Below, in pieces: positions 1-17,130 of a DNA stretch of 22,186 nt. The position numbers and the translations under genes were made by a program. Each line of letters starts with the position of its first letter. Within the stretch, counting starts at the first letter, position 1. The stretch is taken from positions 1 to 22,186 of the IMG/VR virus record IMGVR_UViG_3300033149_004376, one strand, 5' to 3'. This DNA comes from a virus. The notes below the pieces were generated by a model that was not told where the DNA came from, did not search any database, and saw only the letters and a list, made by a program, of their open reading frames with translations.

Positions 1-51
1 CTTTTGGTCGTAAAGGGGGGTACGAGTAAAAATGTTTCGCCAACACCACAT

Positions 52-69
52 TGTTTATGAGAATAAACA
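52..69. promoter_or_regulatory. Perfect dyad upstream of sigma-54 promoter 1
   Basis: TGTTTAT-GAGA-ATAAACA is a perfect 7-bp inverted repeat. Its left arm starts 70 bp before the GG of the -24 element at 122. A related half-site pair (TGTTTAT...AAACA) lies 90 bp before the GG of the second sigma-54 promoter. That position and symmetry fit an upstream activator site for a bacterial enhancer-binding protein. The binding function is inferred. Confidence 0.5.
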
Positions 70-99
70 CGAAAAGCTCTTAAACCCCCCTTCGTGATA
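70..99 (+). promoter_or_regulatory. Weak ECF-type promoter-like match
   Basis: CGAAAA, 17 bp, then CGTGATA. It keeps the spacing and half of the bases of the TGAAAC-N17-CGTCATA family seen at 860, 2582, 11647, 19905 and 19966, and has the C-rich spacer end followed by TT. It lies just upstream of the sigma-54 promoter, so the first unit may have tandem promoters. It is degenerate and may be chance. Confidence 0.3.
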
Positions 100-120
100 T
101 CGTCGTGGGGGTATGTAAAC

Positions 121-135
121 TGGCACGCGATTTGC
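121..135 (+). promoter_or_regulatory. Sigma-54 (RpoN) promoter 1
   Basis: TGGCACGCGATTTGC matches the -24/-12 consensus TGGCAC-N5-TTGC exactly, with 10 bp between the GG and the GC. Predicted start of transcription is about 147. It shares GGGGTAT upstream and a T-run downstream with the promoter at 2197. It would drive the gene at 207. Sigma-54 promoters need an activator ATPase, which is not seen in this window. Confidence 0.8.
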
Positions 136-155
136 GGTTTTTTTTTATGAGTACA

Positions 156-171
156 GGGGCCACATGGCTCC
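156..171 (+). other. 5' leader hairpin of sigma-54 transcript 1
   Basis: GGGGCC-ACAT-GGCTCC can pair over 6 bp (one G-U) starting about 9 nt after the predicted transcription start. The second sigma-54 transcript also opens with a 6-bp hairpin. A role in mRNA stability is inferred. Confidence 0.35.
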
Positions 172-206
172 GACGCAAACAAAACGACGTACGAAAGGAC
201 GAAACC

Positions 207-494
207 ATGAACGAAAACGAGGCAGTAAGATTAAACAACGCAGCGAGCGAAGCTTGGTATTGGGCTGCAATGATGTTCGAAGAGCATACCAGCGATTTCG
301 GACCAAGAGCTTTCCGACTAAGTGCTGCATTTGCTCATGCTGCAAGAAACAGAAACACCAGTCTTGAAGTGGTAGAAGAAGCGATACTTCTAACAAGTGA
401 TTTCAACGGCATAGCAGGAAAAAACTACTATCCGGAGGATGAAGCAACGTTGGTTTACTCCGCGATGGAAATAACCAAAAGACTGATGAATTAA
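207..494 (+). CDS. Hypothetical protein, first gene of sigma-54 unit 1
   Basis: A 95-aa soluble, Ala-rich, mostly helical-looking protein with no recognised motif. The frame stays open back to an ATG at 105, but that start would lie upstream of the sigma-54 promoter. The ATG at 207 has an AAAGGA ribosome site 8-9 nt before it and lies within the predicted transcript, so it is chosen here. It is the first gene after promoter 121-135 and is followed 25 nt later by the gene at 520, probably on the same mRNA. Regulation by sigma-54 plus a host or phage activator is inferred from the promoter. The function is unknown. Confidence 0.75.
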   Translation: MNENEAVRLNNAASEAWYWAAMMFEEHTSDFGPRAFRLSAAFAHAARNRNTSLEVVEEAILLTSDFNGIAGKNYYPEDEATLVYSAMEITKRLMN

Positions 495-519
495 TAAAAG
501 ACAGAAAGGAGAAAGACAA

Positions 520-906
520 ATGTTTGTACTACGAAAACAAGAATTTAAGTCTAAACCGGAAATCCTTCTTTTCGACAACAAAATAGCAGCCGAATTCTAC
601 CTGCGAAAGGTACATGGTGACATTGTGACTGATGACAAGATAAACCAACTAATTGAAAACTCAAGGGACACCAAAATAGAAGAGACAATGTACATCGTCG
701 GACCAGAAGTGATTGATTTTAGGGTCACCGAACAGCCGGAACCGGTAATAACAAACGCAGACGAGTTGGAGTTTTTCCGAGACGTGGTTGGCGGTAAGAT
801 TTGGGATGTGTACGCCGAATGGATGAATGAACGCGTCCAGAGCCACATCGAAGAGGTCATGAAACAGAATTTTCATCCCATTCGTCATATAGACGAAGGC
901 CAGTAA
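520..906 (+). CDS. Hypothetical protein
   Basis: A 128-aa protein of mixed alpha/beta character and acidic C-terminal half, with no recognised family. The start ATG has a strong AAAGGAG ribosome site 8 nt upstream. It follows the gene at 207 by 25 nt and precedes the DUF932-type gene by 1 nt, so the three look like one unit. The last 16 codons double as an ECF-type promoter (860-889), so the C-terminal residues may be shaped by promoter constraint as much as by protein function. Expression of the frame is well supported by spacing and ribosome site; its role is unknown. Confidence 0.75.
   Translation: MFVLRKQEFKSKPEILLFDNKIAAEFYLRKVHGDIVTDDKINQLIENSRDTKIEETMYIVGPEVIDFRVTEQPEPVITNADELEFFRDVVGGKIWDVYAEWMNERVQSHIEEVMKQNFHPIRHIDEGQ
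860..889 (+). promoter_or_regulatory. ECF-type promoter inside gene 3' end
   Basis: TGAAAC at 860-865, 17 bp, CGTCATA at 883-889. It belongs to the family of near-identical elements at 2582, 11647, 19905 and 19966. It lies in the last codons of the gene at 520 and 18 nt before the ATG at 908, so it would give the DUF932-type gene its own short-leader transcript. ECF sigma promoters typically have GAAC/AAAC at -35 and CGTC at -10. Confidence 0.6.
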
Positions 907-907
907 G

Positions 908-1813
908 ATGTCGGGCGTTTGTCCCGACTCAAAGACAGACAACAACACAGCAACCGAAGTAATTAGCAAAAAGATCGAACACAACAAAGCCATACTGGAA
1001 TCGGAGCATGTCTGGGAAATCAACGACCGATTCAGCCATGTTAAGGCTCTCCCAATTAAAACACCGCTTGGAGACAGAACCGATTTCGCGATGGTGTATA
1101 GCAAAAACCCGGATGATGGTATTTGGACACCAACAAGACCTGTCTCTATCGACCGATACCAGCCCATTTCAACGGCAATGATAGTTGATGCTATTCGTGA
1201 CCGATTCAACGACGAAGCAACCACAATCAATGAAAAGGTCCGGTACGGAACCAGAACCACCAAGCAAGAAATTTCTCTTATTCTTGATCTACACACGGTT
1301 AAGATTAACGGCAAACCAAGAGATGCTGGAACCATTTTCACCGAATTGGGCGAGAAAACCAATAACGAAGACTTGTGGAGGCCGACAATCAGGGTTCGAA
1401 ACGCATATGATGGGACCAACGCTGCCTCAGTTTATGCCGGATGGTATCGAATGATTTGCAGCAATGGCCTTATTGTTCCAGCTTGGGAAGGATCGACGTT
1501 TAAGGCACAAAACATTCATACTGTTCACCAGATCGAGCATCTGGTTAATAGCATAGGTAAAATGACCTTTAATGTCACCAAGTTTAGAAAAGCTATGACA
1601 AAAATGATAAAGACGCCACTTAGCGACAAAGAAATAGAAGAATTGCAGAAGCTTTTGCCCAAGAATCACCGAGAAAAATTTCTCGAAGCTCCGCACTCGA
1701 ACACGTACGAAGTCCTCAGCTTTCTCACGTACTTGCAGTCTCATGAAATGTCTTTGGCTCGTGGACGCGTCGTTCAACCTATCATTAATGATTTGATGAA
1801 CAACGCTGCATAG
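908..1813 (+). CDS. DUF932 (TIGR03299-like) phage/plasmid protein
   Basis: A 301-aa protein resembling the DUF932 phage/plasmid family. The central segment around residues 170-195 has the characteristic pattern RMICSNGL, followed by a helical C-terminal half. Family members are common beside replication or early genes on phages and plasmids, and their biochemical role is not established. The start ATG follows a GAAGG site and is 1 nt after the previous stop. An ECF-type promoter ends 18 nt upstream. A complex pair of alternative hairpins (1820-1884) follows the stop and separates it from the gene at 1901. The family call rests on the SNGL region and length. Confidence 0.65.
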   Translation: MSGVCPDSKTDNNTATEVISKKIEHNKAILESEHVWEINDRFSHVKALPIKTPLGDRTDFAMVYSKNPDDGIWTPTRPVSIDRYQPISTAMIVDAIRDRFNDEATTINEKVRYGTRTTKQEISLILDLHTVKINGKPRDAGTIFTELGEKTNNEDLWRPTIRVRNAYDGTNAASVYAGWYRMICSNGLIVPAWEGSTFKAQNIHTVHQIEHLVNSIGKMTFNVTKFRKAMTKMIKTPLSDKEIEELQKLLPKNHREKFLEAPHSNTYEVLSFLTYLQSHEMSLARGRVVQPIINDLMNNAA

Positions 1814-1819
1814 CAAGAA

Positions 1820-1884
1820 AGCCGGAATTATCGGTTCCGGCTCATGTTCCGTCAGTGGGACGGAATGCGACACGGAACCGATAA
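1820..1884 (+). promoter_or_regulatory. Mutually exclusive RNA hairpins between genes
   Basis: Two structures compete for the same bases. Hairpin A pairs AGCCGGAA (1820-1827) with TTCCGGCT (1835-1842). Hairpin B pairs TTATCGGTTCCG (1828-1839) with CGGAACCGATAA (1873-1884) and encloses a second stem, TTCCGTC (1847-1853) with GACGGAA (1859-1865), across matched 7-nt internal loops. All stems are perfect. There is no T-run after either, so this looks more like a processing, stability or switching element than a terminator. Confidence 0.5.
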
Positions 1885-1900
1885 GTGAAAGGGCAAAACT

Positions 1901-2107
1901 ATGGATGAAAGAATGAAGGAAATGTTGGAATCGGTAATTGATATGTGTGGAGTGAAAGAAACTTTAGAGGCAATGGGTGACATCTGCCATGAGAAAGCAA
2001 CACATATCAAGGTTAGTTATGGGGATCAAGCTCTTTCCGACGTATGGGACATAACCGGAACGTGGATTAAAGGAATGGCATCTCAGGCTGGAGACAAATT
2101 ACCTTAA
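1901..2107 (+). CDS. Hypothetical small protein
   Basis: A 68-aa Met-rich protein with no recognised domain. It is probably helical in its first 30 residues. The start ATG follows GAAAGGG with suitable spacing. It is separated from the DUF932-type gene by the alternative hairpins at 1820-1884, so it may be expressed by read-through from upstream and tuned by that structure. No own promoter was seen between the hairpin and the ATG. The function is unknown. Confidence 0.65.
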   Translation: MDERMKEMLESVIDMCGVKETLEAMGDICHEKATHIKVSYGDQALSDVWDITGTWIKGMASQAGDKLP

Positions 2108-2159
2108 TGTTTATTGACGGAAACATGTGTTGTATTTTGTAAACGTGACATCATGTCAC
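2107..2159. promoter_or_regulatory. Two dyads upstream of sigma-54 promoter 2
   Basis: ATGTTT-N8-AAACAT (2107-2126) and GTGACA-TCA-TGTCAC (2145-2159) are perfect inverted repeats. The first contains the TGTTTAT half-site also present at 52-58. The half-site starts 90 bp before the -24 GG, against 70 bp at promoter 1: a 20-bp difference, close to two helical turns. Both are candidate activator or repressor sites. The region 2108-2275 holds no gene. Confidence 0.5.
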
Positions 2160-2196
2160 ATCTTAAAGGAGAATCTTTTCTTGGGGTATCTCAAAT

Positions 2197-2211
2197 TGGC
2201 ACGTGATTTGC
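2197..2211 (+). promoter_or_regulatory. Sigma-54 (RpoN) promoter 2
   Basis: TGGCACGTGATTTGC matches TGGCAC-N5-TTGC exactly, with GG at 2198-2199 and GC at 2210-2211. Predicted transcription start is about 2223. It is flanked by GGGGTAT upstream and a T-run downstream, like promoter 1, so the two are probably duplicates or under common selection. It would drive the gene at 2276. Confidence 0.82.
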
Positions 2212-2226
2212 AATTTTTTAGGTAGA

Positions 2227-2242
2227 GGCGATAATGATCGCC
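2227..2242 (+). other. 5' leader hairpin of sigma-54 transcript 2
   Basis: GGCGAT-AATG-ATCGCC is a perfect 6-bp stem with a 4-nt loop, starting about 5 nt after the predicted transcription start and well before the ribosome site. It parallels the hairpin at 156-171. Confidence 0.4.
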
Positions 2243-2275
2243 GGTCAACAGTACCAAATATAAGGAGACAGACCA

Positions 2276-2572
2276 ATGACAGACGAACAACGGGCCAAAC
2301 AATGGAGAAAACGAGCCGAGACATTTGACAGTTTCGCGGAGCTTGGAATCGGAAATGGTCAGCTATGCCAAGTCCTCTGTTATCAAATCGCAGCATCATA
2401 TAGTGACAATTCTGGTGAATGGAATACATTGTACAACCGATTAAACTTCTTAATAGAACAGGTCAAACGTGGCGGGTATATGACAAGTTTTTCCCTTGCA
2501 ATAGAGAGATTAGTTGAAACAGATAGTAGATGGGATGGATTTAATCCGGACTGGAGAAAAGTCTATTCCTGA
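2276..2572 (+). CDS. Hypothetical protein, first gene of sigma-54 unit 2
   Basis: A 98-aa soluble protein of mixed charge with a Trp-rich C-terminus; no family recognised. The start ATG has a clear AAGGAGA ribosome site 8-9 nt upstream. It is the first gene after sigma-54 promoter 2 (2197-2211), with a leader of about 50 nt that begins with a perfect hairpin. It ends 9 nt before an ECF-type promoter that serves the next gene, so it may be the only protein made from the sigma-54 transcript unless there is read-through. It shows no clear sequence similarity to the gene at 207, the product of the other sigma-54 unit. Confidence 0.75.
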   Translation: MTDEQRAKQWRKRAETFDSFAELGIGNGQLCQVLCYQIAASYSDNSGEWNTLYNRLNFLIEQVKRGGYMTSFSLAIERLVETDSRWDGFNPDWRKVYS

Positions 2573-2581
2573 TCATAGGCA

Positions 2582-2611
2582 TGAAACCGAATCTGAATCC
2601 CGTTCGTCATA
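2582..2611 (+). promoter_or_regulatory. ECF-type promoter
   Basis: TGAAAC (2582-2587), 17 bp, CGTCATA (2605-2611). Its spacer shares CGAAT at the start and CCGTT at the end with other family copies. It lies between genes and 47 nt upstream of the ATG at 2659. The frame of the downstream gene stays open back to an ATG at 2581, which falls on this element and is therefore not a likely start. Confidence 0.65.
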
Positions 2612-2658
2612 AATATGACGTAGTTAAACCAATAACATCTAATAAGGAGAACCTGAAA

Positions 2659-2832
2659 ATGGCAGCAAAAGAACACAAGATTAAGATGAGTATCGACAAG
2701 ACGTGTAAGGCATCGGTTCGGTACGCAAATCCGGAAAGTGACGTTGCAACTAACGTTTACATTTCGAACAGTGCCCTTGAACAGATGGGCAATCCGGAGA
2801 AAATCGAAGTTACCATTAAAGCGGCCAAGTAG
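2659..2832 (+). CDS. Hypothetical small basic protein
   Basis: A 57-aa Lys-rich protein of beta-strand character, with alternating hydrophobic residues and no recognised family. The start is placed at 2659, where AAGGAGAACC precedes the ATG, and not at the in-frame ATG at 2581, which lies inside the ECF-type promoter. The same ribosome-site sequence, AAGGAGAACC, precedes the gene at 2919. It is transcribed from the promoter at 2582-2611 and is followed by a small hairpin with a TTTT tail at 2866-2887. The function is unknown; small size and basic charge leave open a nucleic-acid-binding or host-modulating role. Confidence 0.7.
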   Translation: MAAKEHKIKMSIDKTCKASVRYANPESDVATNVYISNSALEQMGNPEKIEVTIKAAK

Positions 2833-2865
2833 TACGGGTCGAACAGTAAGTCACGGAGCGGTGAT

Positions 2866-2887
2866 TGGAGCATGGAAGCTCCATTTT
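2866..2887 (+). terminator. Weak terminator or attenuator hairpin
   Basis: TGGAGC-ATGGAA-GCTCCA followed by TTTT. The 6-bp stem and short T-run suggest partial termination between the genes at 2659 and 2919. It is weak on both criteria. Confidence 0.35.
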
Positions 2888-2918
2888 CAAGAACCAATTT
2901 TTCTAAGGAGAACCAAGA

Positions 2919-3416
2919 ATGAATGTCAGCGACAAGTTAATGAAACTGGACAAGTTACCGAAGCTGAAACCAAGAACAGCAGCAAAGGGCAGCAAACGTC
3001 GTCGGGTTTGCAAAGGAAACCGCAACGATGCGATATCCGAAGCATTGGAAAAGTGCAGATCAGTGTCCGAAGTTGCTACCCTTGGAATACGTTTTGGCCT
3101 CACGGAAGCTGATATGCTCGAAAGAGCAAAGAAATCTTCCGGATTCGGTCAATTTCGTATGACAGTGGGAAATCTCTGCCGAGGTGTTGCTTCTCGCCTC
3201 ACGCAATGCAAGGAAAGAGGCGTAAAAGTCAAACCGGCAGACGTAGCCTATGCCACCGTTGCGGCAGCTTGCAAGGCGAAACAGCCGAAGAAAGCGGAAA
3301 CAAAGAAGAAAACCAAGGAAACCAAGGAAACCAAGGAAACCAAAGAAACCAAAGAAACCAAAGAAACCAAGAAAACCAAGAAAACCAAGAAAACCAAGAA
3401 AACCAAGAAGAGTTAA
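2919..3416 (+). CDS. Lys/Thr-rich protein with KET/KKT repeat tail
   Basis: A 165-aa, strongly basic protein. Residues 1-45 are Lys/Arg-rich, residues 46-120 look like a compact helical domain, and from about residue 125 the chain is a tripeptide-like repeat of K-E-T and then K-K-T ending in KKS. The tail resembles histone-H1-like or nucleoid-type basic tails, so DNA or RNA binding is plausible but not shown. The start has the same AAGGAGAACC ribosome site as the gene before it. A strong terminator follows the stop by 17 nt, so this is the last gene of its unit. The repeat tract is likely to vary in length between relatives. Confidence 0.7.
   Translation: MNVSDKLMKLDKLPKLKPRTAAKGSKRRRVCKGNRNDAISEALEKCRSVSEVATLGIRFGLTEADMLERAKKSSGFGQFRMTVGNLCRGVASRLTQCKERGVKVKPADVAYATVAAACKAKQPKKAETKKKTKETKETKETKETKETKETKKTKKTKKTKKTKKS
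3311..3411 (+). repeat. 9-bp coding tandem repeat in three homogenised blocks
   Basis: Units of ACCAAGGAA, then ACCAAAGAA, then ACCAAGAAA follow in blocks of about three, three and four copies. Each block is internally identical, which suggests recent slippage within blocks. The tract encodes the KET/KKT tail of the protein at 2919. Confidence 0.85.
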
Positions 3417-3432
3417 AAAGTAACAAAACGGG

Positions 3433-3492
3433 AAGGCGTTCTCATTTCCAACACATCACTACGTCTCAACAGAACGCCTTTCTTTTTTTTTA
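3433..3492 (+). terminator. Rho-independent terminator
   Basis: AAGGCGTTCT (3433-3442) pairs perfectly with AGAACGCCTT (3471-3480), with a 28-nt loop, followed by TTCTTTTTTTTT-type sequence. It ends the + strand unit before the methyltransferase gene. Confidence 0.8.
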
Positions 3493-3516
3493 ATACTGAT
3501 GAGAGAAGGGAATAAA

Positions 3517-4023
3517 ATGTCTAAGATTTATAAAACTATTTTAGCTGACCCCCCATGGAAATATGGGAAAGGATGGGGATGGGGTGCAGGAAAATACTAT
3601 TCGCTTATGTCTTTTGATGACATAAAAAACCTAAAGGTTCCTTCTGCTGAGAATGCTCACTTATATTTATGGGTTCCTAATGGAATAATTCAAAAAGGTT
3701 TAGATGTTATGAAAGCCTGGGGCTTTACTTATAAAACTGTTATTACTTGGGCTAAAACTCGTTCAATTTTTGGATATTATTTCAAAGGACAAACAGAGCA
3801 ACTGCTGTTTGGAGTTAAGGGAAAACTCCCCCCAAAAGATAGGTGTCAAACAACTTTGTTAATAGCAAAGAATAGAAAGCATTCTCAGAAGCCAGAAGAA
3901 ATGTACTCAAAAATTGAAGCCGTTTCTATAGGGCCTTACTTGGAATTGTTTGCTCGGCATAAACGAGAAGGTTGGGATGTTTGGGGCGATGAAGTAGAAA
4001 ATAGTATAAGGATTGTATCTTGA
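3517..4023 (+). CDS. MT-A70 family DNA N6-adenine methyltransferase
   Basis: A 168-aa protein with the catalytic DPPW motif at residues 11-14 and the rest of a short MT-A70-like fold: YLWVPN around residue 50, WAKT and the C-terminal HSQKPEE segment. It would transfer a methyl group from SAM to adenine N6 in DNA and may protect phage DNA from restriction. An upstream in-frame ATG at 3499 has no ribosome site, whereas 3517 is preceded by AGAAGGG. The gene is more AT-rich than its left neighbours, which suggests separate acquisition. If the phage genome carries 2-aminoadenine, as PurZ suggests, the substrate is puzzling. The length is normal for short phage members. Confidence 0.85.
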   Translation: MSKIYKTILADPPWKYGKGWGWGAGKYYSLMSFDDIKNLKVPSAENAHLYLWVPNGIIQKGLDVMKAWGFTYKTVITWAKTRSIFGYYFKGQTEQLLFGVKGKLPPKDRCQTTLLIAKNRKHSQKPEEMYSKIEAVSIGPYLELFARHKREGWDVWGDEVENSIRIVS

Positions 4024-4039
4024 TGTATTAGAATACATC
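4022..4039. promoter_or_regulatory. Perfect 18-bp dyad upstream of sigma-like gene
   Basis: GATGTATT-AG-AATACATC is a perfect 8-bp inverted repeat that begins at the methyltransferase stop codon and lies about 42 bp before the ATG at 4081. Its symmetry and position suit a repressor or activator site controlling the sigma-like gene. Confidence 0.45.
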
Positions 4040-4080
4040 GCATCATTAAAGATGAAGTTGGGGATGGTGGAAGCACAATT

Positions 4081-4683
4081 ATGGAGTTTAAGGATATATA
4101 CCTCAAGTACGGACCTCAAGTATGGCGAATTGCTAAACGATACGATGTTGGATTCGGTATTTGGGACGCCGATGATTTGTATCAGCAAACACTAATTCAT
4201 CTTTACGCCGGTTTCGATAGTGGAGTAATTGGTGACAATGAAAAAATAGTGACAAGCTATATTATCAGTTGCATTATTGACATTTTACGTGTTGAACGAT
4301 ATCGAGAAATGTTAAGTCTTGACTCTATGCAACAGAGGCAAAAGGAACGAGCAGAACCGGTTTCGATAAGAACGTACGAACAATATAAAGCTGAAGTTGA
4401 AAATCTCAAAACGTCCCTTGCGGAAAAATTACCGGAAATAATCTTCGAAACGATTTGGGAAATTATGTTTCCCCGCGAAGAAACGGTACAAAGAGCAATC
4501 ATAGAAAACTTAGAAGCATCGAAGGACAAGACAAGACTGAGGATGAATGTTAGAAAAGCAAAAGTGACGGGGAAACACGTACGGGATACGTTAGGTATTA
4601 GTAAAGCAACTCTATCGAGGAGATTACAGCAAGCACGAGAAATTCTTGGAGGATATTATTATGAAGAAGAAAATCAAGCATAA
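4081..4683 (+). CDS. Sigma-70-like (ECF-type) RNA polymerase sigma factor
   Basis: A 200-aa protein with two-domain sigma architecture. Residues 6-75 resemble region 2, with YGPQVWRIAKRY followed by DADDLYQQTLIHLY. Residues 160-190 form a region-4-like helix-turn-helix (VRDTLGISKATLSRRLQQA). It should bind host core RNA polymerase and direct it to phage promoters. The TGAAAC-N17-CGTCATA elements in this window are the obvious candidate targets. The start follows a weak GGTGG site. The 3' end overlaps the next gene by 23 nt, which holds that gene's GGAGG ribosome site. The linker is longer than in minimal ECF factors. It is divergent, so an alternative is a sigma-fold DNA-binding regulator. 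Confidence 0.65.
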   Translation: MEFKDIYLKYGPQVWRIAKRYDVGFGIWDADDLYQQTLIHLYAGFDSGVIGDNEKIVTSYIISCIIDILRVERYREMLSLDSMQQRQKERAEPVSIRTYEQYKAEVENLKTSLAEKLPEIIFETIWEIMFPREETVQRAIIENLEASKDKTRLRMNVRKAKVTGKHVRDTLGISKATLSRRLQQAREILGGYYYEEENQA

Positions 4684-5122
4684 GAAGGTCAAGCATAAGA
4701 AGGTCAAGCATAAGAAGGTCAAGCAAGTAAATGCTAAACGTTGCGATGTCCCAGATTGTAACCGGTCCTTTTCTGTTGGATGGAAAGCATCGTCAACGAA
4801 ATATAAATCAATAGGAAATCCGTACAAGAGAGTTTGCACATATCATTTCAACAAGCATATAGACCCGGATGATGATTTTTCACTTCATGAAATTTTCGGT
4901 TGTTTGCATCTTGGTGTAGATTGTGATCGATTTGGATTTCCGAAAGCTCCAGATGTGGAGGAAATGGCTAAACTGTCAGAGGAATTAGCAGAGAAGGAAA
5001 AGGATATAACAAAAAAGAAAATAGGAGTGAATATTAAAAAAGAAGCAGCGAAAAAGGAAAATAGACGATTCGCATCACCAATAAATGATGTTGCAGATGA
5101 AATCCTGAAAGGTTTTCTATGA
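4661..5122 (+). CDS. Lys-rich protein with KHKKV repeats and Cys/His cluster
   Basis: A 153-aa basic protein. The N-terminus carries three perfect copies of the pentapeptide KHKKV. Residues 25-85 hold several Cys and His residues (CDVPDC, CTYHF, CLHLGVDC) that could bind zinc, and the C-terminal third is charged and likely coiled-coil. The start at 4661 has GGAGG 8 nt upstream; an in-frame TTG at 4646 would place that site inside the gene. It overlaps the sigma-like gene by 23 nt, so the two are probably co-translated. It may act with the sigma factor or bind nucleic acid, but no family was recognised. Confidence 0.7.
   Translation: MKKKIKHKKVKHKKVKHKKVKQVNAKRCDVPDCNRSFSVGWKASSTKYKSIGNPYKRVCTYHFNKHIDPDDDFSLHEIFGCLHLGVDCDRFGFPKAPDVEEMAKLSEELAEKEKDITKKKIGVNIKKEAAKKENRRFASPINDVADEILKGFL
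4676..4720 (+). repeat. Three perfect 15-bp tandem repeats
   Basis: AAGCATAAGAAGGTC occurs three times without mismatch, in frame with the gene at 4661, and encodes KHKKV each time. The perfect identity suggests recent expansion. Confidence 0.9.
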
Positions 5123-5286
5123 AACGAAACAAAAGACAACGCAGAAAATACATATTGTTTTGGATAATAATAATCTTGATTTTCCTAATGGCATCAAGTT
5201 TAGGTGTTTTCATTGCTTTAGAATCTCTTTTATCCACCAAAACTTTTGCAATCAACGTAGATATCCTGCATTCTACTCAGTCTTAG
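5119..5286 (+). CDS. Small single-pass membrane protein (55 aa)
   Basis: A 55-codon frame that starts in an ATGA overlap with the stop of the gene at 4661. It has a very basic N-terminus (MKRNKRQRRK), then about 26 hydrophobic residues around FWIIIILIFL, then a short polar tail. This is the layout of a membrane protein with a cytoplasmic N-terminus. The 4-nt overlap supports translational coupling. It ends 57 nt inside the 3' end of the convergent primase gene. It could be a host-membrane modifier or a small holin-like protein; nothing decides this. There is no visible + strand terminator after it. Confidence 0.6.
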   Translation: MKRNKRQRRKYILFWIIIILIFLMASSLGVFIALESLLSTKTFAINVDILHSTQS

Positions 5287-6183
5287 ATTCCTCAAATGAT
5301 TGCAAACCCCCGACATTTGAGCCAATCCCAAATCCCCGGGATCTTTATCCCCGCCAAACATAACAGGCCAAGCTCTTAAGCCGGACCTATTAAGACGAAA
5401 AGCATTGTTTAAGCATTTGTCTGATGCGTCTGGGTCCATTAAAACAAAAATTCTCTCAATGTTATACTTTCTAAGGCTCGAAACCTGTTGTTCTGTGATC
5501 ATAGACCCAAGTATTGCGTAAGAATCTGGTGTCATCAGATGATCAAAGACACCTTCAACAAGGAAAACAACAGGTTTAGGACGTTTGACATGAAGACCGA
5601 AAAGAGGTTTTGTTGAGCTTTTCGGTTCAAGAGTTTTCGGTCCGTCATCATCAACAAATCTACGTCCAATGTAAAATGTTTGTTCCCCAGATTCATTCCA
5701 GTAGGGAAAATAGACCGTGGGTTCCCATTTGTGAACATATGGTTTATAAGAAATGATCTGCTGAATTTTAACTCCTCTGTTTTGAAGGTATTTGAATGCT
5801 TTCGTTGCGACCGAGAAGAAAACGTTTCCTGTATCGTCGGGATTATAAACTGGGGTTTTATATATGTCCATGATGTCCATGGATGGCTTAGAACAAACTT
5901 CTCGGTCAAAGGAAATATCCTTTCGAATTTCCCCTGATAGTATCTCACCATCTATCCGAGAGATCAGAGAACGCCATCTGGATATATCTCGTCCAATGTG
6001 TTCAAGAAAAAATCCCCCAACTATACATTTCCAGCAATTAAAACAGCCCTTTTTAATGTTAACGCTGAAATGTTCATCATCTCCACAACCGGGGCAAGAC
6101 ATCCATACTTCATCACCTTTTAGTGTGAAATCACCAGATGTTAACATGGATATCACATATTCATATATTTCAATCGTCTTCAT
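5230..6183 (-). CDS. DnaG-type DNA primase
   Basis: A 317-aa phage primase. Residues 30-53 form the N-terminal zinc ribbon (CPGC ... CFNCWKC). A TOPRIM domain follows, with VFLVEGVFDHL (Glu210) and RIFVLMDPDAS (Asp250, Asp252) and a later GDKDPGDLG segment, the metal-binding elements of DnaG-like primases. It makes RNA primers for lagging-strand synthesis and would work with the helicase encoded at 7158-8459. It is shorter than bacterial DnaG (about 600 aa) and has no visible helicase-interaction domain. The gene is the last of the - strand replication unit and converges on the + strand arm. Its start overlaps the upstream gene by 14 nt. Confidence 0.85.
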   Translation of the reverse strand: MKTIEIYEYVISMLTSGDFTLKGDEVWMSCPGCGDDEHFSVNIKKGCFNCWKCIVGGFFLEHIGRDISRWRSLISRIDGEILSGEIRKDISFDREVCSKPSMDIMDIYKTPVYNPDDTGNVFFSVATKAFKYLQNRGVKIQQIISYKPYVHKWEPTVYFPYWNESGEQTFYIGRRFVDDDGPKTLEPKSSTKPLFGLHVKRPKPVVFLVEGVFDHLMTPDSYAILGSMITEQQVSSLRKYNIERIFVLMDPDASDKCLNNAFRLNRSGLRAWPVMFGGDKDPGDLGLAQMSGVCNHLRNLRLSRMQDIYVDCKSFGG

Positions 6184-6457
6184 TCCAAGTTTTAAGCTTA
6201 AAAGAATTTTCTCTTATCCAATCCATATCAATATTAGATGACCAAGGGTCCATATCAAACGCCCAAAGACCACGCGTTGTCTCGTATTCGTGCAGAAGGA
6301 ATTGAAACAAACGATAAGGACCCATTTTATTGAAATCTTTGGCTATCTTATCTTCGAATCGTTTCTTTTCAAAAGTAGCACGATATGCGTATCCCATCAA
6401 AAACGATCCACATGTTAGTATAACCAACAAAATTTCCATAACAAATTTACCATCCAT
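6170..6457 (-). CDS. Hypothetical membrane-anchored protein
   Basis: A 95-aa protein with an N-terminal hydrophobic helix (about residues 7-24, MEILLVILTCGSFLMGYAY) and a charged soluble remainder. The start ATG at 6457 has AAAGGAG 8 nt upstream; an in-frame ATG at 6439 has no comparable site. It lies between the primase gene, which it overlaps by 14 nt, and an unknown gene 2 nt upstream. Its position in the replication unit raises the possibility of membrane tethering, but nothing in the sequence shows it. No family was recognised. Confidence 0.7.
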   Translation of the reverse strand: MDGKFVMEILLVILTCGSFLMGYAYRATFEKKRFEDKIAKDFNKMGPYRLFQFLLHEYETTRGLWAFDMDPWSSNIDMDWIRENSFKLKTWNEDD

Positions 6458-6459
6458 AA

Positions 6460-6828
6460 TTAATCTCCTTTCAACGATTTTGGTGTTGTTATTTTGGTAA
6501 TAACATCAGATGATTCATTGCGACTGAATTTACCTTTTTTAAAATCCTTAGGTTTCATTCCTAAAAATTTTTCAACTGAATATTTTATTCTTTTTTCAAT
6601 TGATATTCCCTCCGGAGAAGTAATAGGCCAAACCATACCGTATGAATATGGAATATTTCCAACCCATTTAGTCATTTTCATGTAGAAAAAATAGTCAATT
6701 TCACCTATTTTTCCGGCATCTCTTTGACAGAAAGTAATTTCAACACCTTTAGACACAAGACCTTTTATAATTTCCCAAACATCCGCCTGTTCCTCTTTAT
6801 TAATCCCTCGTCTGTTTTCTTTTCCCAT
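6460..6828 (-). CDS. Hypothetical protein
   Basis: A 122-aa basic soluble protein with no recognised domain. It has an aromatic-rich middle (around IDYFFYMKMTKWVG) and a Lys-rich C-terminus. The start ATG follows AGGAATTAAGTA. It sits 2 nt upstream of the membrane-anchored protein gene and 3 nt after the gene at 6832, so it is certainly co-transcribed with the primase unit. The function is unknown. Confidence 0.7.
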   Translation of the reverse strand: MGKENRRGINKEEQADVWEIIKGLVSKGVEITFCQRDAGKIGEIDYFFYMKMTKWVGNIPYSYGMVWPITSPEGISIEKRIKYSVEKFLGMKPKDFKKGKFSRNESSDVITKITTPKSLKGD

Positions 6829-6831
6829 TAC

Positions 6832-7161
6832 TTAATTCCTTTTATGTATAGTTTCGGTTGTATTTATTAAATCCATAAAAGAAGAATGACAATCTTCCCA
6901 TTCCAGGTAATAACCTGTTTTTCTAAGTTTCTCATATGCTTGTTTGCCGGTAATAATCCCGAAATTAGCTACTACAAACATTTGGTTCAGGTCTAAATAC
7001 TCAACCATATAAAGTTTCGGTTTTGGTCTTGGTAAACAAGATGTATCTAAATAAAATATTTTTTCTTCATCCAAAAAAGGTACTAAAATCAAATATATGC
7101 TTTCTTCGCCGTTATCCTCGTAAGTTTCAAAATCGTCAAATGAGATTTCGCTGACATTCAT
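6832..7161 (-). CDS. Hypothetical acidic protein
   Basis: A 109-aa acidic protein, rich in aromatic residues and apparent beta strands, with no recognised family. Its ATG overlaps the helicase stop codon as ATGA (7158-7161) and the ribosome site AGAGGA lies in the helicase 3' end, so translation is probably coupled to the helicase. A helicase partner such as a loader is one possibility from context only; no loader motif is visible. Confidence 0.7.
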   Translation of the reverse strand: MNVSEISFDDFETYEDNGEESIYLILVPFLDEEKIFYLDTSCLPRPKPKLYMVEYLDLNQMFVVANFGIITGKQAYEKLRKTGYYLEWEDCHSSFMDLINTTETIHKRN

Positions 7162-8459
7162 TCCTCTAAATCCTCTATTAATTGTCTTTCAAAATCTGCT
7201 ACTAATACGTGTTGTTGATGATCTTTATTGTCACGCATTTTAGAAGTAAATAATTTCATTCTCCCGATAGCCTCATCTTCAAGAGTTTGACCCAAACCAA
7301 TAACGATATCAGGCGATTCCATAGTCCCCCATGACTCTCCAGCATGTTCGTAACTAATAATATCTTTTCCGACTCTTGATTTATTAACTTGGCGTGCCGT
7401 CCAATGAACCACATTAAGATCACGTGCCATCCATTTACAATCCTCAGCAATTTCTCGTAAACCATGACGAGGTTCATTTGATCGGCTGGAAGAACGATAT
7501 CTATCCATGTAGTCAGAGATGATAAGATCAACTTTTCTTCCAGTTATTTCTTGTACATTCCGTATAAAAGCAGCCGCATCTTCAACCGAAGATCGTCTGG
7601 ACATAAGGTCCTTAATCTCACAACGTCCCCCATACTTAAGAAGGAATTTTTTTGTTCTTTTAACGTAAAGGTCTTTGTCATGAGCTAAATCTTGCCTTCC
7701 AACTCTACAAATAGATTGTATTAATCTTCGTCGTATTTTCTTCTCACCGTCTTCGAAAGTAAAATAAACAACAAATTTACCTTCTTTAATTGCTGCACGA
7801 GCTATATTAACCAAACTTGTTGTTTTTCCACCACTCACTACTGTTAGTATTATACATAAATCACCAATTTCTGGACCACCATCAAGCTCATCATTCAGCC
7901 AAACCCAAGGCGTAGGAATACATGGATTTTTCTCACTAACATTCGTGTCATTTTCTCCAAGTATTGTGTGATTGAATAAAAGATCATCACCGGTTCTTGC
8001 AGCCTTTGATATTTTCTCCGAAAAAGCATTAGCATCCTCTCCGTTATGTGTCATTAATATTCTATCTATTGCAGTCCATTTACTCCAATTCATCATTCTT
8101 TTAATGATGTAATCGAGATTTTCTGGCTCTTCAAAAGACTGAACAACATCTATTGCACCGGTTTTGTCACGATATTTGCTACGTCTTATTAAATCAGCTA
8201 AGATTTCTGTTGATGGAGATTCCCGATTTTCATCATAAAAATTTAGTACAGCATCAACTATAAATCTATGATGATCATGAATAAAAGCATCCCTACTAAT
8301 TATTGATCTGAATTTTGAAATAAAATCTCTTGATCTGCATATTGCGGCAACCACCAAGCTTTCAAAATCCGGACCGAACGTACTCGACGTGCTGACTGTA
8401 ACATTTTGTATTCCTTTGGTAATGCTTCCACTATCTTGTTTTTTATTAGAAAAGTCCAA
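7158..8459 (-). CDS. DnaB-type replicative DNA helicase
   Basis: About 433 aa. The N-terminal domain (roughly residues 25-130) resembles the DnaB N-terminal helical domain; the C-terminal part is RecA-like. It holds a P-loop TVVSGGKTTSL, a FTFEDGEKKIRRRL segment like the DnaB H1a motif, and a Walker B strand VDLIISDYMD. This is followed by WMARDLNVVHWTARQVNKS, which corresponds to the DnaB LAKELNVPVIALSQLNR region. The P-loop lacks the usual first Gly (Thr instead). The start is a TTG at 8459 with GGAGG 5 nt upstream; an earlier TTG at 8471 would contain the ribosome site. It would unwind DNA at the fork with the primase. The 5' end overlaps the HNH gene by 160 nt. Confidence 0.85.
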   Translation of the reverse strand: MDFSNKKQDSGSITKGIQNVTVSTSSTFGPDFESLVVAAICRSRDFISKFRSIISRDAFIHDHHRFIVDAVLNFYDENRESPSTEILADLIRRSKYRDKTGAIDVVQSFEEPENLDYIIKRMMNWSKWTAIDRILMTHNGEDANAFSEKISKAARTGDDLLFNHTILGENDTNVSEKNPCIPTPWVWLNDELDGGPEIGDLCIILTVVSGGKTTSLVNIARAAIKEGKFVVYFTFEDGEKKIRRRLIQSICRVGRQDLAHDKDLYVKRTKKFLLKYGGRCEIKDLMSRRSSVEDAAAFIRNVQEITGRKVDLIISDYMDRYRSSSRSNEPRHGLREIAEDCKWMARDLNVVHWTARQVNKSRVGKDIISYEHAGESWGTMESPDIVIGLGQTLEDEAIGRMKLFTSKMRDNKDHQQHVLVADFERQLIEDLEE

Positions 8460-9093: not shown

Positions 9094-9544
9094 AAACATA
9101 AACAACCTTGAGAGGATAGTGGGTAAAAAGTGTCCTTCTCTTTTCAGTCTCCAGAAATGATAACCTCAGGAGCAAAGCAATTTTTCTATCAGAGGCAGGA
9201 GTTATTTCTATACAATGTCTTACAAATTCCACAGCCAAACAGTACGGGGGATTTGTAACAATACTACCATTTCTCCACTTTTTCCTTCTAAAGAAATCCA
9301 ATCCCGTTGTACCATAAATATTCGTTTCATTTCTTATATCGCTGCTGGTCACTACATAGCCGTTTCTCTCAAGGACCTTTGAAATATGACCTGCACCACA
9401 CGCCGGTTCCAAAACATGATTGTAGAATATTTCTCTATCCAACAAAGCTTGAATAGCTTCCGGCGGAGTAGCATAATTGTCGTGAATGGCTCTGTCCTGT
9501 TTTTTCTTCAACCGGACTCGACCACCAGCCAGCAAATGATTCAT
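9080..9544 (-). CDS. SAM-dependent DNA methyltransferase, frameshifted at 3' end
   Basis: The visible frame gives 154 aa. It has a TPPEA N-terminal segment (25-31), SAM-binding motif I LEPACGAGHIS (45-55) and catalytic NPPY (98-101), the pattern of phage adenine-N6-type or related DNA methyltransferases. The frame stops at VYVFSIC, but the expected C-terminal block continues in the +1 frame to 8998 (separate entry), so a one-base indel near 9090 is likely. The full protein would be about 180 aa. The start overlaps the corrected dUTPase stop as ATGA (9541-9544). The target base is unknown. The catalytic motifs are all before the shift. Confidence 0.75.
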   Translation of the reverse strand: MNHLLAGGRVRLKKKQDRAIHDNYATPPEAIQALLDREIFYNHVLEPACGAGHISKVLERNGYVVTSSDIRNETNIYGTTGLDFFRRKKWRNGSIVTNPPYCLAVEFVRHCIEITPASDRKIALLLRLSFLETEKRRTLFTHYPLKVVYVFSIC

Positions 9545-9981: not shown

Positions 9982-10578
9982 CTATTTCAACTTTTCTCTT
10001 TTCAACTCAACGGGAATACTACCGTTATATTCCCATTCACTAATAACAATATTCCCCATTGAAGCAACATCTTTGAAATCCTGATTATGTTTTATGTATG
10101 AATGTACTCCACACAATAAAGCAGCAGATTTCTCAGAACGATTTTTCATTAAAAGAGTTTCTTCTGGGTTATTAGTAGTACGGGCTTTTCTGCGATTTTC
10201 CAAAATTAATTCGTCGCAGTAGATAAATCTAAACTCAAAAAAGCATGATCTTTTAGCTGCATCAGATGATAATAATAACCAATCAACCTGTTCCTTTTTC
10301 CGTGGAAATCCATCAAGGTACAGATCAACATTGTTTCCTCTTGCCAGTCTGAATGAATGATGAAAAATACTTTTGACAAAGTTGTCAGTTTCAACTGGTG
10401 CACTCGGATTATCTAAATGCTGGAAAAATCTCGGACCTAACATTTCCCGGAAAAATTTCCCAAAATGTACTGTGACAGGTCTTTTATCTCCACTTTCAGT
10501 GATTGTTTTCACTACATAATCAATGTATGTAGATTTTCCGACTCCTGATACACCTAAAACACAAATTATTCTCGTCAT
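9982..10578 (-). CDS. Adenylate-kinase-like nucleoside monophosphate kinase
   Basis: A 198-aa P-loop kinase. The Walker A motif is GVSGVGKST (9-17), and residues 89-93 are DGFPR, the adenylate-kinase signature that lies near the NMP site. The Arg-rich RRKART segment resembles the lid region. It would phosphorylate a (d)NMP with ATP. Its ATG overlaps the purZ stop by 4 nt, so the two are translationally coupled. This suggests it acts on the PurZ pathway, perhaps converting dZMP to dZDP, a step otherwise given to host guanylate kinase. The match to adenylate kinase is partial, so the nucleotide specificity is open. Confidence 0.75.
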   Translation of the reverse strand: MTRIICVLGVSGVGKSTYIDYVVKTITESGDKRPVTVHFGKFFREMLGPRFFQHLDNPSAPVETDNFVKSIFHHSFRLARGNNVDLYLDGFPRKKEQVDWLLLSSDAAKRSCFFEFRFIYCDELILENRRKARTTNNPEETLLMKNRSEKSAALLCGVHSYIKHNQDFKDVASMGNIVISEWEYNGSIPVELKREKLK

Positions 10579-11612
10579 GTTAATAACTCCATTTCACTAT
10601 TCTTTGCTCCTGTACCGAGAAGTTTCAATTGACAACCAGAATATTCCATCATAGTTTTTCCTATGAATTTTAGCCAGTTACTATCCTTACCATCCGGAAG
10701 ATAATTAACAAAATTCATAAACATGTAGTCTGGTTGACAATACCGAAGAAATCTGTATAATTGTTTCATACTAAATGAAAATACACGACGTACTCTTTTG
10801 GTTACTGATGTGTATTCCCTAACGTCTTTACCACACATTTGACTGATCTCTTCCCACACCATTTCTCGCTGATCGGTGTAACATGGTCCACTTGTACCTC
10901 CTTCAATGTTTCCAACTCGTATTGGGTGACACCGGATTGAACCTATAATCGAACCAAGCATTCTTGGATGAGCACCAGCATTATCAAGGAAACGACCAAG
11001 AAGACAATCTCTGCTTGTAACAAATGGCCAACTATGACCAGCATTCAGACTGAGATCGAAACCTTGTGAAGTTTCTATTAAAGTTGTGCACTCCGTTTTT
11101 GTAAGAAGTTGGTGTGTATCAGCAACAAAATGACTTAAATCACCATCAGAATACGCGAGAATACAATTATCTGGATTCCTACGCATTTTTCTTATCTGAG
11201 CTTCAGCACATCCTTGCATCGTACTGGCAACATGACGCAAATTCAAACTTTCCGCTTCTTTATCTTTATAAGAAAGAACCGAAGCAAAAGGATGAATGTA
11301 TAAAGGAACCTTTTGTTGTCTTACCCTACCGGCAATTTCTAATTCTTTGAAAAGAACTGGTTTGGAAATGACGGCATGTGGACCAATAAGGACTCTCTTA
11401 ACGTTTGGAAATAGAGAACCCATTGGAAGCATTTTAAACATAAATTTTTCAGTAGTGTCAGCAATAAAGGTGTGACCGGCGTTTGGCATAAAATCCGAAA
11501 CAACAGTGTCAATTTCAGAATAATGACTTAAAAGCCAACCAGCTAATTTACCTTTACCAGTTGAACCCCATTGACCATCAACTAATATATTAACAAAGCC
11601 CTTCTTAATCAT
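10575..11612 (-). CDS. purZ: PurZ, N6-succino-2-amino-dAMP synthase
   Basis: A 345-aa adenylosuccinate-synthetase homologue. It has WGSTGKGK (15-22), where host PurA has WGDEGKGK: the catalytic Asp is replaced by Ser, as in the phage PurZ enzymes of 2-aminoadenine (Z) genomes. Other PurZ-like blocks are MPNAGHT (42-48), TSRDC (199-203), CHPIRVG (228-234) and TKRVRRVFSFS (271-281). Its length (345) fits PurZ and is well short of bacterial PurA (about 430). It condenses dGMP with aspartate; host PurB then yields dZMP. It starts an operon from an ECF-type promoter 34 nt upstream and has an AAAGG ribosome site. No MazZ or DatZ partner is visible in this window. Confidence 0.9.
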   Translation of the reverse strand: MIKKGFVNILVDGQWGSTGKGKLAGWLLSHYSEIDTVVSDFMPNAGHTFIADTTEKFMFKMLPMGSLFPNVKRVLIGPHAVISKPVLFKELEIAGRVRQQKVPLYIHPFASVLSYKDKEAESLNLRHVASTMQGCAEAQIRKMRRNPDNCILAYSDGDLSHFVADTHQLLTKTECTTLIETSQGFDLSLNAGHSWPFVTSRDCLLGRFLDNAGAHPRMLGSIIGSIRCHPIRVGNIEGGTSGPCYTDQREMVWEEISQMCGKDVREYTSVTKRVRRVFSFSMKQLYRFLRYCQPDYMFMNFVNYLPDGKDSNWLKFIGKTMMEYSGCQLKLLGTGAKNSEMELLT

Positions 11613-11744: not shown

Positions 11745-13022
11745 TTATCCAAGAATGTCTGCTAAAACATCCTTTGATTCGTCGTCATCTTCGCTGTCGG
11801 ATTCTTCCTTCTTTCCTTTTTTCCCTTTCTTTCCTTTCTTAACCTTTGCCCCACATTTTTCAAAATGGGAACAGCCCTTACAATCAGCATCTTCTGGGTC
11901 GTAATAATCCTTGTCACCGAAACACTGAGGATCATCAGATGAAGATGTTTCCTCAGGCTCTTCCTCAGGCTCTTCCTCCATCTTTATATCTTCGTAAGGG
12001 AAAATATCGACATCACCATCATCGAAAGTAATTTCCGCTCCTTCTTTCGCGATTTTCGATACTTTACCGTGGTATGGCTCACCTTCAATTTCAGCCACTA
12101 CTCTCGAACCAATTTCGAATTCCGGTCCTTCTTCTTCTTCAACAAGCGTTAAGGTTGATAAATCTACGTTGTAGATCTCGCCCTTGGAATCACGGATAGT
12201 GACATTTCCTGTGGTTTCGTCAAAGTCGTCAACTTCACAGATTTCATCCTCATCTTCGTACTTGACTTTGGAACCGACTTCAATGCCAGAAGGCTTTTCT
12301 TTCTTTGACGTTTTCTTCGGAGTCTTTCCACTCTTGGCAGATACTTCTTCTTCTTTCTTTGCCTTGCCATCGGATTCTTCCTGTTCGATTTCATCCTCGG
12401 AGTAAATATCTTCAGGAAATAAACCTATACTTTCGCAGACTGATCTCATGGATGGTATTCGAATTTTATCGATTGGATCGACAACTTCATCAGAGATGCT
12501 CTTCTTTATCGGTGTGGGTTTTCTTTCCACTGAAGTTTTATATTCAGTATCAAGTCCGCTTCCGGTCACTTTAATTTTGAAACAGCAACCTTTCTTCGGT
12601 TCGAGAACGTCCTTCCAATCATCATCCGTGGCAAATGAACAGATAGCCTCAAATACTGTTTTGGGCATTACCCAAAGGCGAACATTATCTGGGTCATTGT
12701 CCACATCGACAGCGTTCATGACGTATCTTGTTCGAGTAGTAAATTTTTGATCCTTTCCGTTATCACGACGAATCTTGTTTACGCGGCAGATTGGACATGG
12801 TAGGTCGGCAAGCTCGAACCGACAAACCCCCAATCCTCTTCCACCTTGATCCTTAATACGATGCTCCGATCTGGGTTGAGCAAATCCAACTCTACCCTTG
12901 GAATTTGTGTATTCCAGAATCCGGAGTCTGTACGTGTTGCCGGACTTTGGATAGCGAAACATTCCGCTACGCCTCTGAGCTTCTTCCATTTGTTGGTCCA
13001 GCAAATCTCTGTCTACTGCCAT
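11745..13022 (-). CDS. gp32-like single-stranded DNA-binding protein with Tudor-like inserts
   Basis: A 425-aa protein. The N-terminal 200 residues look like T4 gp32: a FRYPKSGNTYRLRIL strand region and a zinc site His54, Cys67, Cys76, Cys79, whose spacing nearly equals that of T4 gp32 (His64, Cys77, Cys87, Cys90). After a charged linker come two SH3/Tudor-like segments (about 247-295 and 304-347) beginning GSKVKYE and GSRVVAE. Then comes a second Cys cluster (367, 381, 384, 390), a KKG repeat, and an acidic tail ending DVLADILG, typical of SSB partner-binding tails. It would coat ssDNA at the fork. It is much longer than gp32 (301 aa). The start has AAGGAAGG upstream. Confidence 0.8.
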   Translation of the reverse strand: MAVDRDLLDQQMEEAQRRSGMFRYPKSGNTYRLRILEYTNSKGRVGFAQPRSEHRIKDQGGRGLGVCRFELADLPCPICRVNKIRRDNGKDQKFTTRTRYVMNAVDVDNDPDNVRLWVMPKTVFEAICSFATDDDWKDVLEPKKGCCFKIKVTGSGLDTEYKTSVERKPTPIKKSISDEVVDPIDKIRIPSMRSVCESIGLFPEDIYSEDEIEQEESDGKAKKEEEVSAKSGKTPKKTSKKEKPSGIEVGSKVKYEDEDEICEVDDFDETTGNVTIRDSKGEIYNVDLSTLTLVEEEEGPEFEIGSRVVAEIEGEPYHGKVSKIAKEGAEITFDDGDVDIFPYEDIKMEEEPEEEPEETSSSDDPQCFGDKDYYDPEDADCKGCSHFEKCGAKVKKGKKGKKGKKEESDSEDDDESKDVLADILG

Positions 13023-16109: not shown

Positions 16110-16607
16110 TTACTCCTTTGTCCACCAATCTTTAAAATTATCTATTTCCTTCATAGTTTCTACCGGATCACCTCTGAATCTAATACTCCTATCATCAATA
16201 TAAAAGTTAGCGACTGGTTTTCCCGGATTATTTGCCACTAAACTTGAGTTTGTGTTTACTTCATCCACAAGCAAATCCAGACGATACGATTTTAACCAGT
16301 CATTTACTTCTACTTGCCCTCTTGTGGTGAATACAACAATCTTAAAACCACGTTTCTTTAAATCTTCCAAAAAACTTTCTGCCCATGGATAAGGTTCACC
16401 AATTTGGAAAGGTCCTTGGTAACCAGAATATTTAGCTAAAACGCCATCAAGATCAACACAAACTGTTCCATATGAATCTTGTCCATTAGTTTCGGCGTCA
16501 AGCTCATCTTTTAGAGCTTCAAGCATAGCCAAACCATTTGTCGTACCACCACCTTTGATGTGGTTCATTGCAATCTGTATTCTTGTTTTAATTTCGTCAG
16601 TTATCAT
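16110..16607 (-). CDS. HAD-superfamily phosphatase/hydrolase
   Basis: A 165-aa protein. A helical leader of about 45 residues precedes a HAD core: motif I VDLDG (Asp52, Asp54), motif II FTTRG (94-98) and motif IV YIDDR (137-141). The fold resembles phage polynucleotide-kinase phosphatase domains and 5'-nucleotidase-like HADs. It would hydrolyse a phosphate ester; a nucleotide or nucleic-acid 3'-phosphate is likely from context, which is all replication genes. A Z phage needs to deplete dATP, and a nucleotidase could help, but that role is speculative. It ends 2 nt before the polymerase ATG and starts after AAGGAG within the end of the sigma-like gene. Confidence 0.75.
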   Translation of the reverse strand: MITDEIKTRIQIAMNHIKGGGTTNGLAMLEALKDELDAETNGQDSYGTVCVDLDGVLAKYSGYQGPFQIGEPYPWAESFLEDLKKRGFKIVVFTTRGQVEVNDWLKSYRLDLLVDEVNTNSSLVANNPGKPVANFYIDDRSIRFRGDPVETMKEIDNFKDWWTKE

Positions 16608-17130
16608 TTGCCAATCTCCTTAATTCTAAAAATTGTTTGATTTCAAGGTGAAATCTTCTTCTTGTTCTTACTACAGATAGCCCGTATTTTTTAGCCATCA
16701 TTTGATGAGCACCGGCGAACACACCATTTTCTACAATATATTGAAGATATTGTTGAAGACGTGGTGTCAATGGTAAATCTTTTGTTTTATGATTACTTGA
16801 TTTGTTAACATTTTTACTATACTCCATCAAAAGAGAAAGGGAATTATTGCTAAATTGTATCGCGGCTTTTTTAATAGCATTAAGACCAATTTTGAGCAAA
16901 TAAGCTCTTATTGTCCCGCTATTTTTAAGATTAGCATTATCAAGTTTCTGCCAAATTTTCAATCGTGCTTCTTGCATTGCATCATCCACACAATGACGAG
17001 CATTCTTAAATGCCATTGATAATAGTATCGGTTCAAGTTTATTAATTAATATTTCAAATCCCTCATCCGATTCTTTTGCATTAATTAACAGACTCTTCCA
17101 TATTTTTGAATTTAAGTCCCGCATAATCAT
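16597..17130 (-). CDS. Second sigma-70-like (ECF-type) factor
   Basis: A 177-aa protein. Residues 31-90 resemble sigma region 2: LEPILLSMAFKNARHCVDDA followed by MQEARLKIWQ, the DAMQE...W core helix of ECF factors. A linker then leads to a region-4-like helix-turn-helix near residues 137-165 (AKKYGLSVVRTRRRF). It could recognise one of the phage promoter classes together with the factor encoded at 4081. The two are divergent in sequence, so they may have different targets or timing. The ATG has no strong ribosome site and lies 50 nt inside the nuclease gene. The match is by pattern; a structural comparison would be decisive. Confidence 0.6.
   Translation of the reverse strand: MIMRDLNSKIWKSLLINAKESDEGFEILINKLEPILLSMAFKNARHCVDDAMQEARLKIWQKLDNANLKNSGTIRAYLLKIGLNAIKKAAIQFSNNSLSLLMEYSKNVNKSSNHKTKDLPLTPRLQQYLQYIVENGVFAGAHQMMAKKYGLSVVRTRRRFHLEIKQFLELRRLANDN

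Follow-up and report, generated by a model that had tools for sequence, protein, structure and literature searches.

Two intergenic promoters, P1 and P2, were analysed in a phage contig of 22,186 bp (the window) and are best read as sigma-54 promoters which, with a probability of about 0.8, would recruit the RpoN polymerase of the host together with a host AAA+ enhancer-binding activator (bEBP). The observed basis comprises the promoter cores, the tandem dyads upstream of them, their syntenic conservation and a search of family records that found no rpoN or bEBP gene; from this we infer bEBP binding, RpoN dependence, early timing and a sigma cascade. At the level of sequence, P1 and P2 belong to a known class, the sigma-54 promoter with an enhancer. 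The window is the whole of an IMG/VR contig, which is itself a genome fragment, and the remainder of the genome could therefore be checked only through relatives.

The pattern TGGCAC-N5-TTGC occurred exactly twice in the window, both times on the + strand, at 121-135 (P1, -24/-12 core TGGCACGCGATTTGC, start predicted near A147) and at 2197-2211 (P2, TGGCACGTGATTTGC). Both perfect cores are intergenic, are oriented toward genes and lie 65-72 bp ahead of the ATGs at 207 and 2276, each having a ribosome-binding site. They carry the GG of the -24 element and the GC of the -12 element at the fixed spacing, and 14 of 15 core bases are common to the two (TGGCACGNGATTTGC). In dinucleotide-preserving shuffles the mean number of copies per window was 0.022 and two or more copies appeared once in 1500. 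The original prediction of two perfect intergenic cores in the coding direction was borne out. That prediction also described a wider frame shared by the two promoters. The shared core bases held, and GGGGTAT was present at both (at 108 and 2183, 13 and 14 bp 5' of the cores), but this heptamer was absent from the relatives; it is thus local to the window and was rejected as a conserved promoter element. A T-run occupies 138-146 (+) between the -12 element and the predicted start of P1, and TTTTTTAGGTAGA at 2214-2226 (+), 3' of the -12 element of P2, is common to the G004 and G017 promoters described below. The predicted initially transcribed regions are alike as well, with TTTTTTAGGTAGAG in P2 and TTTTTTAGGTGGG, TTCTTTAGGGTGGAG and TTTTTAGGGTAGAG in G004. 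The core TGGCACG-N4-TTGC and the T-rich melting region resemble those of bacterial RpoN promoters with tandem activator sites.

Upstream of each core, two abutting 18-bp dyads of the form TGTT-N10-AACA start at about -90 and -69 from the core, within the range of about 80-150 bp before the start that is expected of upstream activator sites. The candidate enhancer of P1 consists of a distal dyad TGTTTCGCCAACACCACA at 33-50 (about -88; 7 of 8 consensus bases) and a proximal dyad TGTTTATGAGAATAAACA at 52-69 (-69; 8 of 8), and that of P2 of a distal dyad TGTTTATTGACGGAAACA at 2108-2125 (-89; 8 of 8) and a proximal dyad TGTTGTATTTTGTAAACG at 2128-2145 (-69; 7 of 8). The TGTTTAT half-sites first noticed are indeed present at 52 (-69) and 2108 (-89), but each promoter has both positions filled, and what had been taken for a 20-bp difference between the promoters is actually the spacing within a tandem pair common to P1 and P2. 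Bacterial RpoN promoters likewise have dimeric sites in tandem on one helix face, about 85-110 bp ahead of the transcription start. The dyads bound by the bEBP-type regulators TyrR (the TyrR box), GlrR and NifA have outer TGT...ACA bases, and these are conserved in the phage dyads also; the phage half-site TGTT(G/T)(C/A) is no exact fit to any of the three consensus sequences.

The tandem dyads were scored in six promoters of three phages (the window and the relatives G004 and L004), in which they have a spacing of 19-21 bp and stand at -90/-69 or -112/-91. The summed score was 85 compared to 57 +/- 2.2 in shuffles of the same upstream DNA (maximum 66), and none of 5000 shuffles reached the observed value; the consensus was taken from the very promoters that were scored, so these P values are flattering. 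Single promoters gave P <= 4e-4 in five of six cases, and the sixth, the G004 promoter at 61619, has weak dyads and was not significant (P = 0.087). Four of the five exact dyads in G004 fall within 150 bp upstream of its three cores (P about 3e-9). Other palindromes were also found between enhancer and core. The palindrome GTGACATCATGTCAC at 2145-2159 (-52) of P2 is perhaps a candidate operator of another regulator. ATATACAACCGGTTGTATAT-like palindromes at -60/-59 and -29/-27 of two G004 promoters, with copies of the type also in G012 (locus L049, judged by eye), are perhaps sites for another regulator too; the ATATACAACCGGTTGTATAT repeats lie at G004 64227-64398 and 67295-67346 (6228-6399 and 9296-9347 of the stretch L021).

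The cores were used to search for relatives. A core-only scan of IMG/VR with TGGCACG-N3-TTTGC-N2-T5 gave seven contigs, among them G004 (L006) and L004. G004 (92,205 bp) is distantly related and syntenic, with 15 blastp matches to window ORFs and proteins 33-55% identical (DnaB 55%, PurZ 49%, DUF932 44%, sigma factor 33%). Its PolA is in two parts, one at each end of the contig (39 and 55% identity to the window), and the ends share an exact overlap of 127 bp; G004 is therefore an effectively complete, circularly permuted genome. The perfect cores in its 92 kb number exactly three (at 61619, 64408 and 67354), all on the + strand and all within its single rightward block; two of the three have perfect tandem dyads at -112/-91. 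The DUF932 operon is preceded by P1 in the window and by the 67354 promoter in G004. The single core of L004 (5.9 kb) is flanked by terminase genes that run leftward and by a block that runs rightward. L004 is a probable family member; its terminase (35%) and one of its block proteins (47% over a stretch of 51 residues) have counterparts in G004. L003 is a fragment of the replication part only (95-100% identical to the window). A scan by DnaB alignment found G004 as the sole relative, and among 50,697 phage records there was neither a near DNA relative of window 1-8000 nor any protein related to DUF932 of G004.

A second IMG/VR scan, for one dyad followed by a core, gave 22 places, 18 of them distinct. 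In 12 of these 18 the dyad stands at -68 to -71 or -89 to -92, out of 29 allowed offsets (P = 6e-4). Two of the records, G012 and G017, are family members with homologues of PurZ, PolA, DnaB, primase, the sigma factor and DUF932. Both have a divergent pair of cores about 200 bp apart that surround or neighbour dyads (G012 12445-12687, L049; G017 3747-3968, L061). One core of each pair precedes and faces the sigma/DUF932 genes, with one mismatch in G017 and with the nearest full dyad at -161 in G012; the other points toward the primase operon at its 3' end, has no ORF downstream and perhaps drives a small RNA or an antisense transcript. The -24/-12 consensus is exact in nine of ten family cores, with a single mismatch in the tenth. 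Further copies of the core beyond the window were thus found in G004, L004, G012 and G017. Their recurrence at equivalent loci of distant relatives, mostly accompanied by helically phased tandem dyads, supports, together with the cellular loci described below, the initial reading, in which sigma-54 promoters are paired with activator sites upstream. Perfect cores with TGTT-N10-AACA dyads were also present in unrelated phages: in L052, L060 and L063 (which has three dyads) the core is found where leftward terminase genes meet a rightward block of small genes, lying between the two or next to them, and L045 and L047/L058 have it at the same junction, as assigned by gene resemblance. Matches inside genes (L048, L050, L053, L055 and L056) are probably due to chance.

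The same arrangement was sought in cellular DNA, where 84,980 bacterial and archaeal genomes were scanned for a tandem dyad followed by TGGCAC at 46-76 bp. The scan gave 16 places, six of them having a -12 element (TTGC or TGC) also, and four of these six (L029, L031, L036 and L038) adjoin or drive a gene taken to encode a sigma-54 activator. For L029, L036 and L038 the stretch examined contains the Walker motif, as GESGTGKE or a sequence close to it; L031 drives a PAS-domain protein whose reading as an activator rests on domain order, as the stretch ends before the Walker motif. The combination of tandem dyad and core thus has the layout used by cellular enhancer-binding proteins.

The protein which would read these promoters was searched for in the phage records. 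No Sigma54_activat domain was found in the nine records searched, G004 included, and neither HTH_8 (Fis-type helix-turn-helix) nor Sigma54_DBD (the RpoN DNA-binding domain) in G000, G001, G002 and G004. The search for an AAA+ activator that the original prediction proposed thus came out negative in the family records searched; neither rpoN nor a bEBP gene was found there, even in the effectively complete G004, and host RpoN with a host activator is therefore most likely used. As a candidate, a phage-borne activator was rejected on the lack of an activator domain in the family records searched. An arrangement in which a phage-encoded activator works with host RpoN later in infection, making P1 and P2 middle promoters, is accordingly regarded as unlikely. 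The window is a fragment that may lack its own activator gene, many phage proteins are without a family and the palindromes adjoining the cores could be sites of a phage regulator; the effectively complete G004 has no Sigma54_activat or HTH_8 domain, however, and the dyads are of the type seen at cellular bEBP genes. The host was sought through DUF932 relatives, and none were found in the genome contigs searched with narrow patterns, in 395 + 125 genomes of two candidate phyla or in the seven genomes having dyad and core loci; tRNA genes, sought as a further clue, gave no hit.

It is quite improbable that the repeats serve a phage repressor as operators, or a phage sigma factor as promoters, and that their resemblance to sigma-54 sites is coincidental. 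The phage does encode sigma-70-like factors and has palindromic operator candidates at these places, but the -24/-12 match is exact in all family cores except one, the dyads sit at enhancer distance and are helically phased, and the independent bacterial scan found the same arrangement beside bEBP genes. Hexamers of the sigma-70 type near the cores are weak, matching at most 9 of 12 bases, and sigma-70 promoters were rejected as the main reading on this ground. Pure chance, that is two 10-base matches followed by pattern-seeking upstream, is hardly credible: any 22-kb window holds many motifs and some matches of the collection scan are intragenic, but the shuffle tests of cores and tandem dyads, the distant syntenic relatives with the same promoters to which the motif itself led, and the phased offsets concentrated in two 4-bp windows all stand against it.

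The rightward block of the window (207-5122, all genes on the + strand) holds ORFans, DUF932, a methyltransferase and a sigma factor. Downstream of P1 are a gene for a protein of 95 aa without a family (207-494), an ORF of the P1 operon without a family (520-906), the DUF932 gene (908-1813; kept in G004, G012 and G017 at 36-43% identity) and a small ORF ahead of P2 (1901-2107). P2 is followed by a gene for 98 aa (2276-2572), a conserved block protein (2919-3416; 35% to its G004 homologue), an MT-A70-type DNA methyltransferase (3499-4023), a sigma-70-family (ECF-like) factor (4081-4683; kept in G004, G012 and G017) and the final gene of the block (4661-5122; kept in G004). The product of 4081-4683 matched Pfam Sigma70_r2 with 25.8 bits (cut-off 24), and the Foldseek best matches of its predicted model (mean pLDDT 73) were nearly all sigma factors, the best E value being 6.7e-3 and none <= 0.001; the region 2 match and the sigma-like predicted fold place it in the sigma-70 family. 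A second sigma-70-like protein is encoded leftward at 16597-17130 and matched the same PHROG weakly. From 5230 on the genes run leftward and include primase, DnaB, a dUTPase-like protein, PurZ, an ssDNA-binding protein and PolA, among others.

In the mechanism proposed, host bEBP dimers would bind the two abutting dyads of 18-20 bp on one face of the DNA (-90/-69, or -112/-91 in G004). The DNA would then loop, and at TGGCACG-N4-TTGC-N2-T6 the closed RpoN complex would be opened by ATP hydrolysis. Transcription from P1 and P2 would read the one block that runs rightward, with its small ORFans, DUF932, methyltransferase and phage sigma-70-like factor, and later genes would be left to the phage sigma. 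This factor, by its region 2 match in Pfam and its predicted model, suggests a cascade in which sigma-54 would come first and the phage sigma later. T4 and SPO1 also encode a sigma factor of their own. The present phages resemble them in having a sigma-70-family factor, here inside the rightward block, and differ in that host sigma-54, and not host sigma-70, would transcribe the first block. The difference from bacterial RpoN promoters is that the promoters lie in phage genomes in which no rpoN or activator gene was found and would drive a viral block, not a cell pathway.

The first step of a phage is generally thought to use the housekeeping polymerase of the host, which is always available. 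The promoter type proposed here is one that the host cell ordinarily keeps for genes of its own under signal control. The start of infection would here hinge on a host regulator absent from the virus, and the need for RpoN and an activated host bEBP would make infection conditional on a physiological signal of the host and tie host range to a regulator, a clear and testable case of signal-gated infection. In the literature searched, outside subscription journals, no description of phage sigma-54 early promoters was found. The tandem dyad with core could serve as a sequence signature for finding more such phages, and the binding site of the activator could match uncultured phages to hosts.

The window encodes a PurZ homologue at 10575-11612 (phrog_1211, E = 5e-61) adjoining DNA polymerase I, and PurZ is present in G004, G012 and G017 also. 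Where PurA has its catalytic Asp (GDEGKG), the window and G004 have Ser (GSxGKG, within GQWGSTGKGK), a substitution which we take to mark PurZ, 2-aminoadenylosuccinate synthetase; the family probably swaps adenine for 2-aminoadenine in its own DNA. The Z-genome phages Vibrio phage phiVC8 and Vibrio phage 69E27.1 are alike in their PurZ homologue (41% over 98%) and DNA polymerase I, and no perfect sigma-54 core was found in either genome. Sigma-54 use as a general trait of Z-phages was rejected, and PurZ alone has no explanatory power for the cores because these two known Z-phages are without them. A tentative wider view, somewhat doubtful at present, is that sigma-54 early promoters recur as a phage strategy, the early block of several unrelated groups opening with a promoter under host-bEBP control so that the lytic programme waits for a particular host signal, and that in PurZ phages the ATP-driven opening could also help to melt the stabler 2-aminoadenine promoter DNA.

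Minor features were also observed. The G+C content is 43.6% in window 1-3500 and 37% in the remaining contig. The gene at 2919-3416 ends in KET/KKT repeats at 3300-3416 (tandem ACCAAGGAA / ACCAAGAAA), and its G004 homologue has a lysine-rich tail as well. In L004, the short hairpin GGTCATTGCGACC and its variants are repeated within 4730-5860 ahead of several rightward-block genes.
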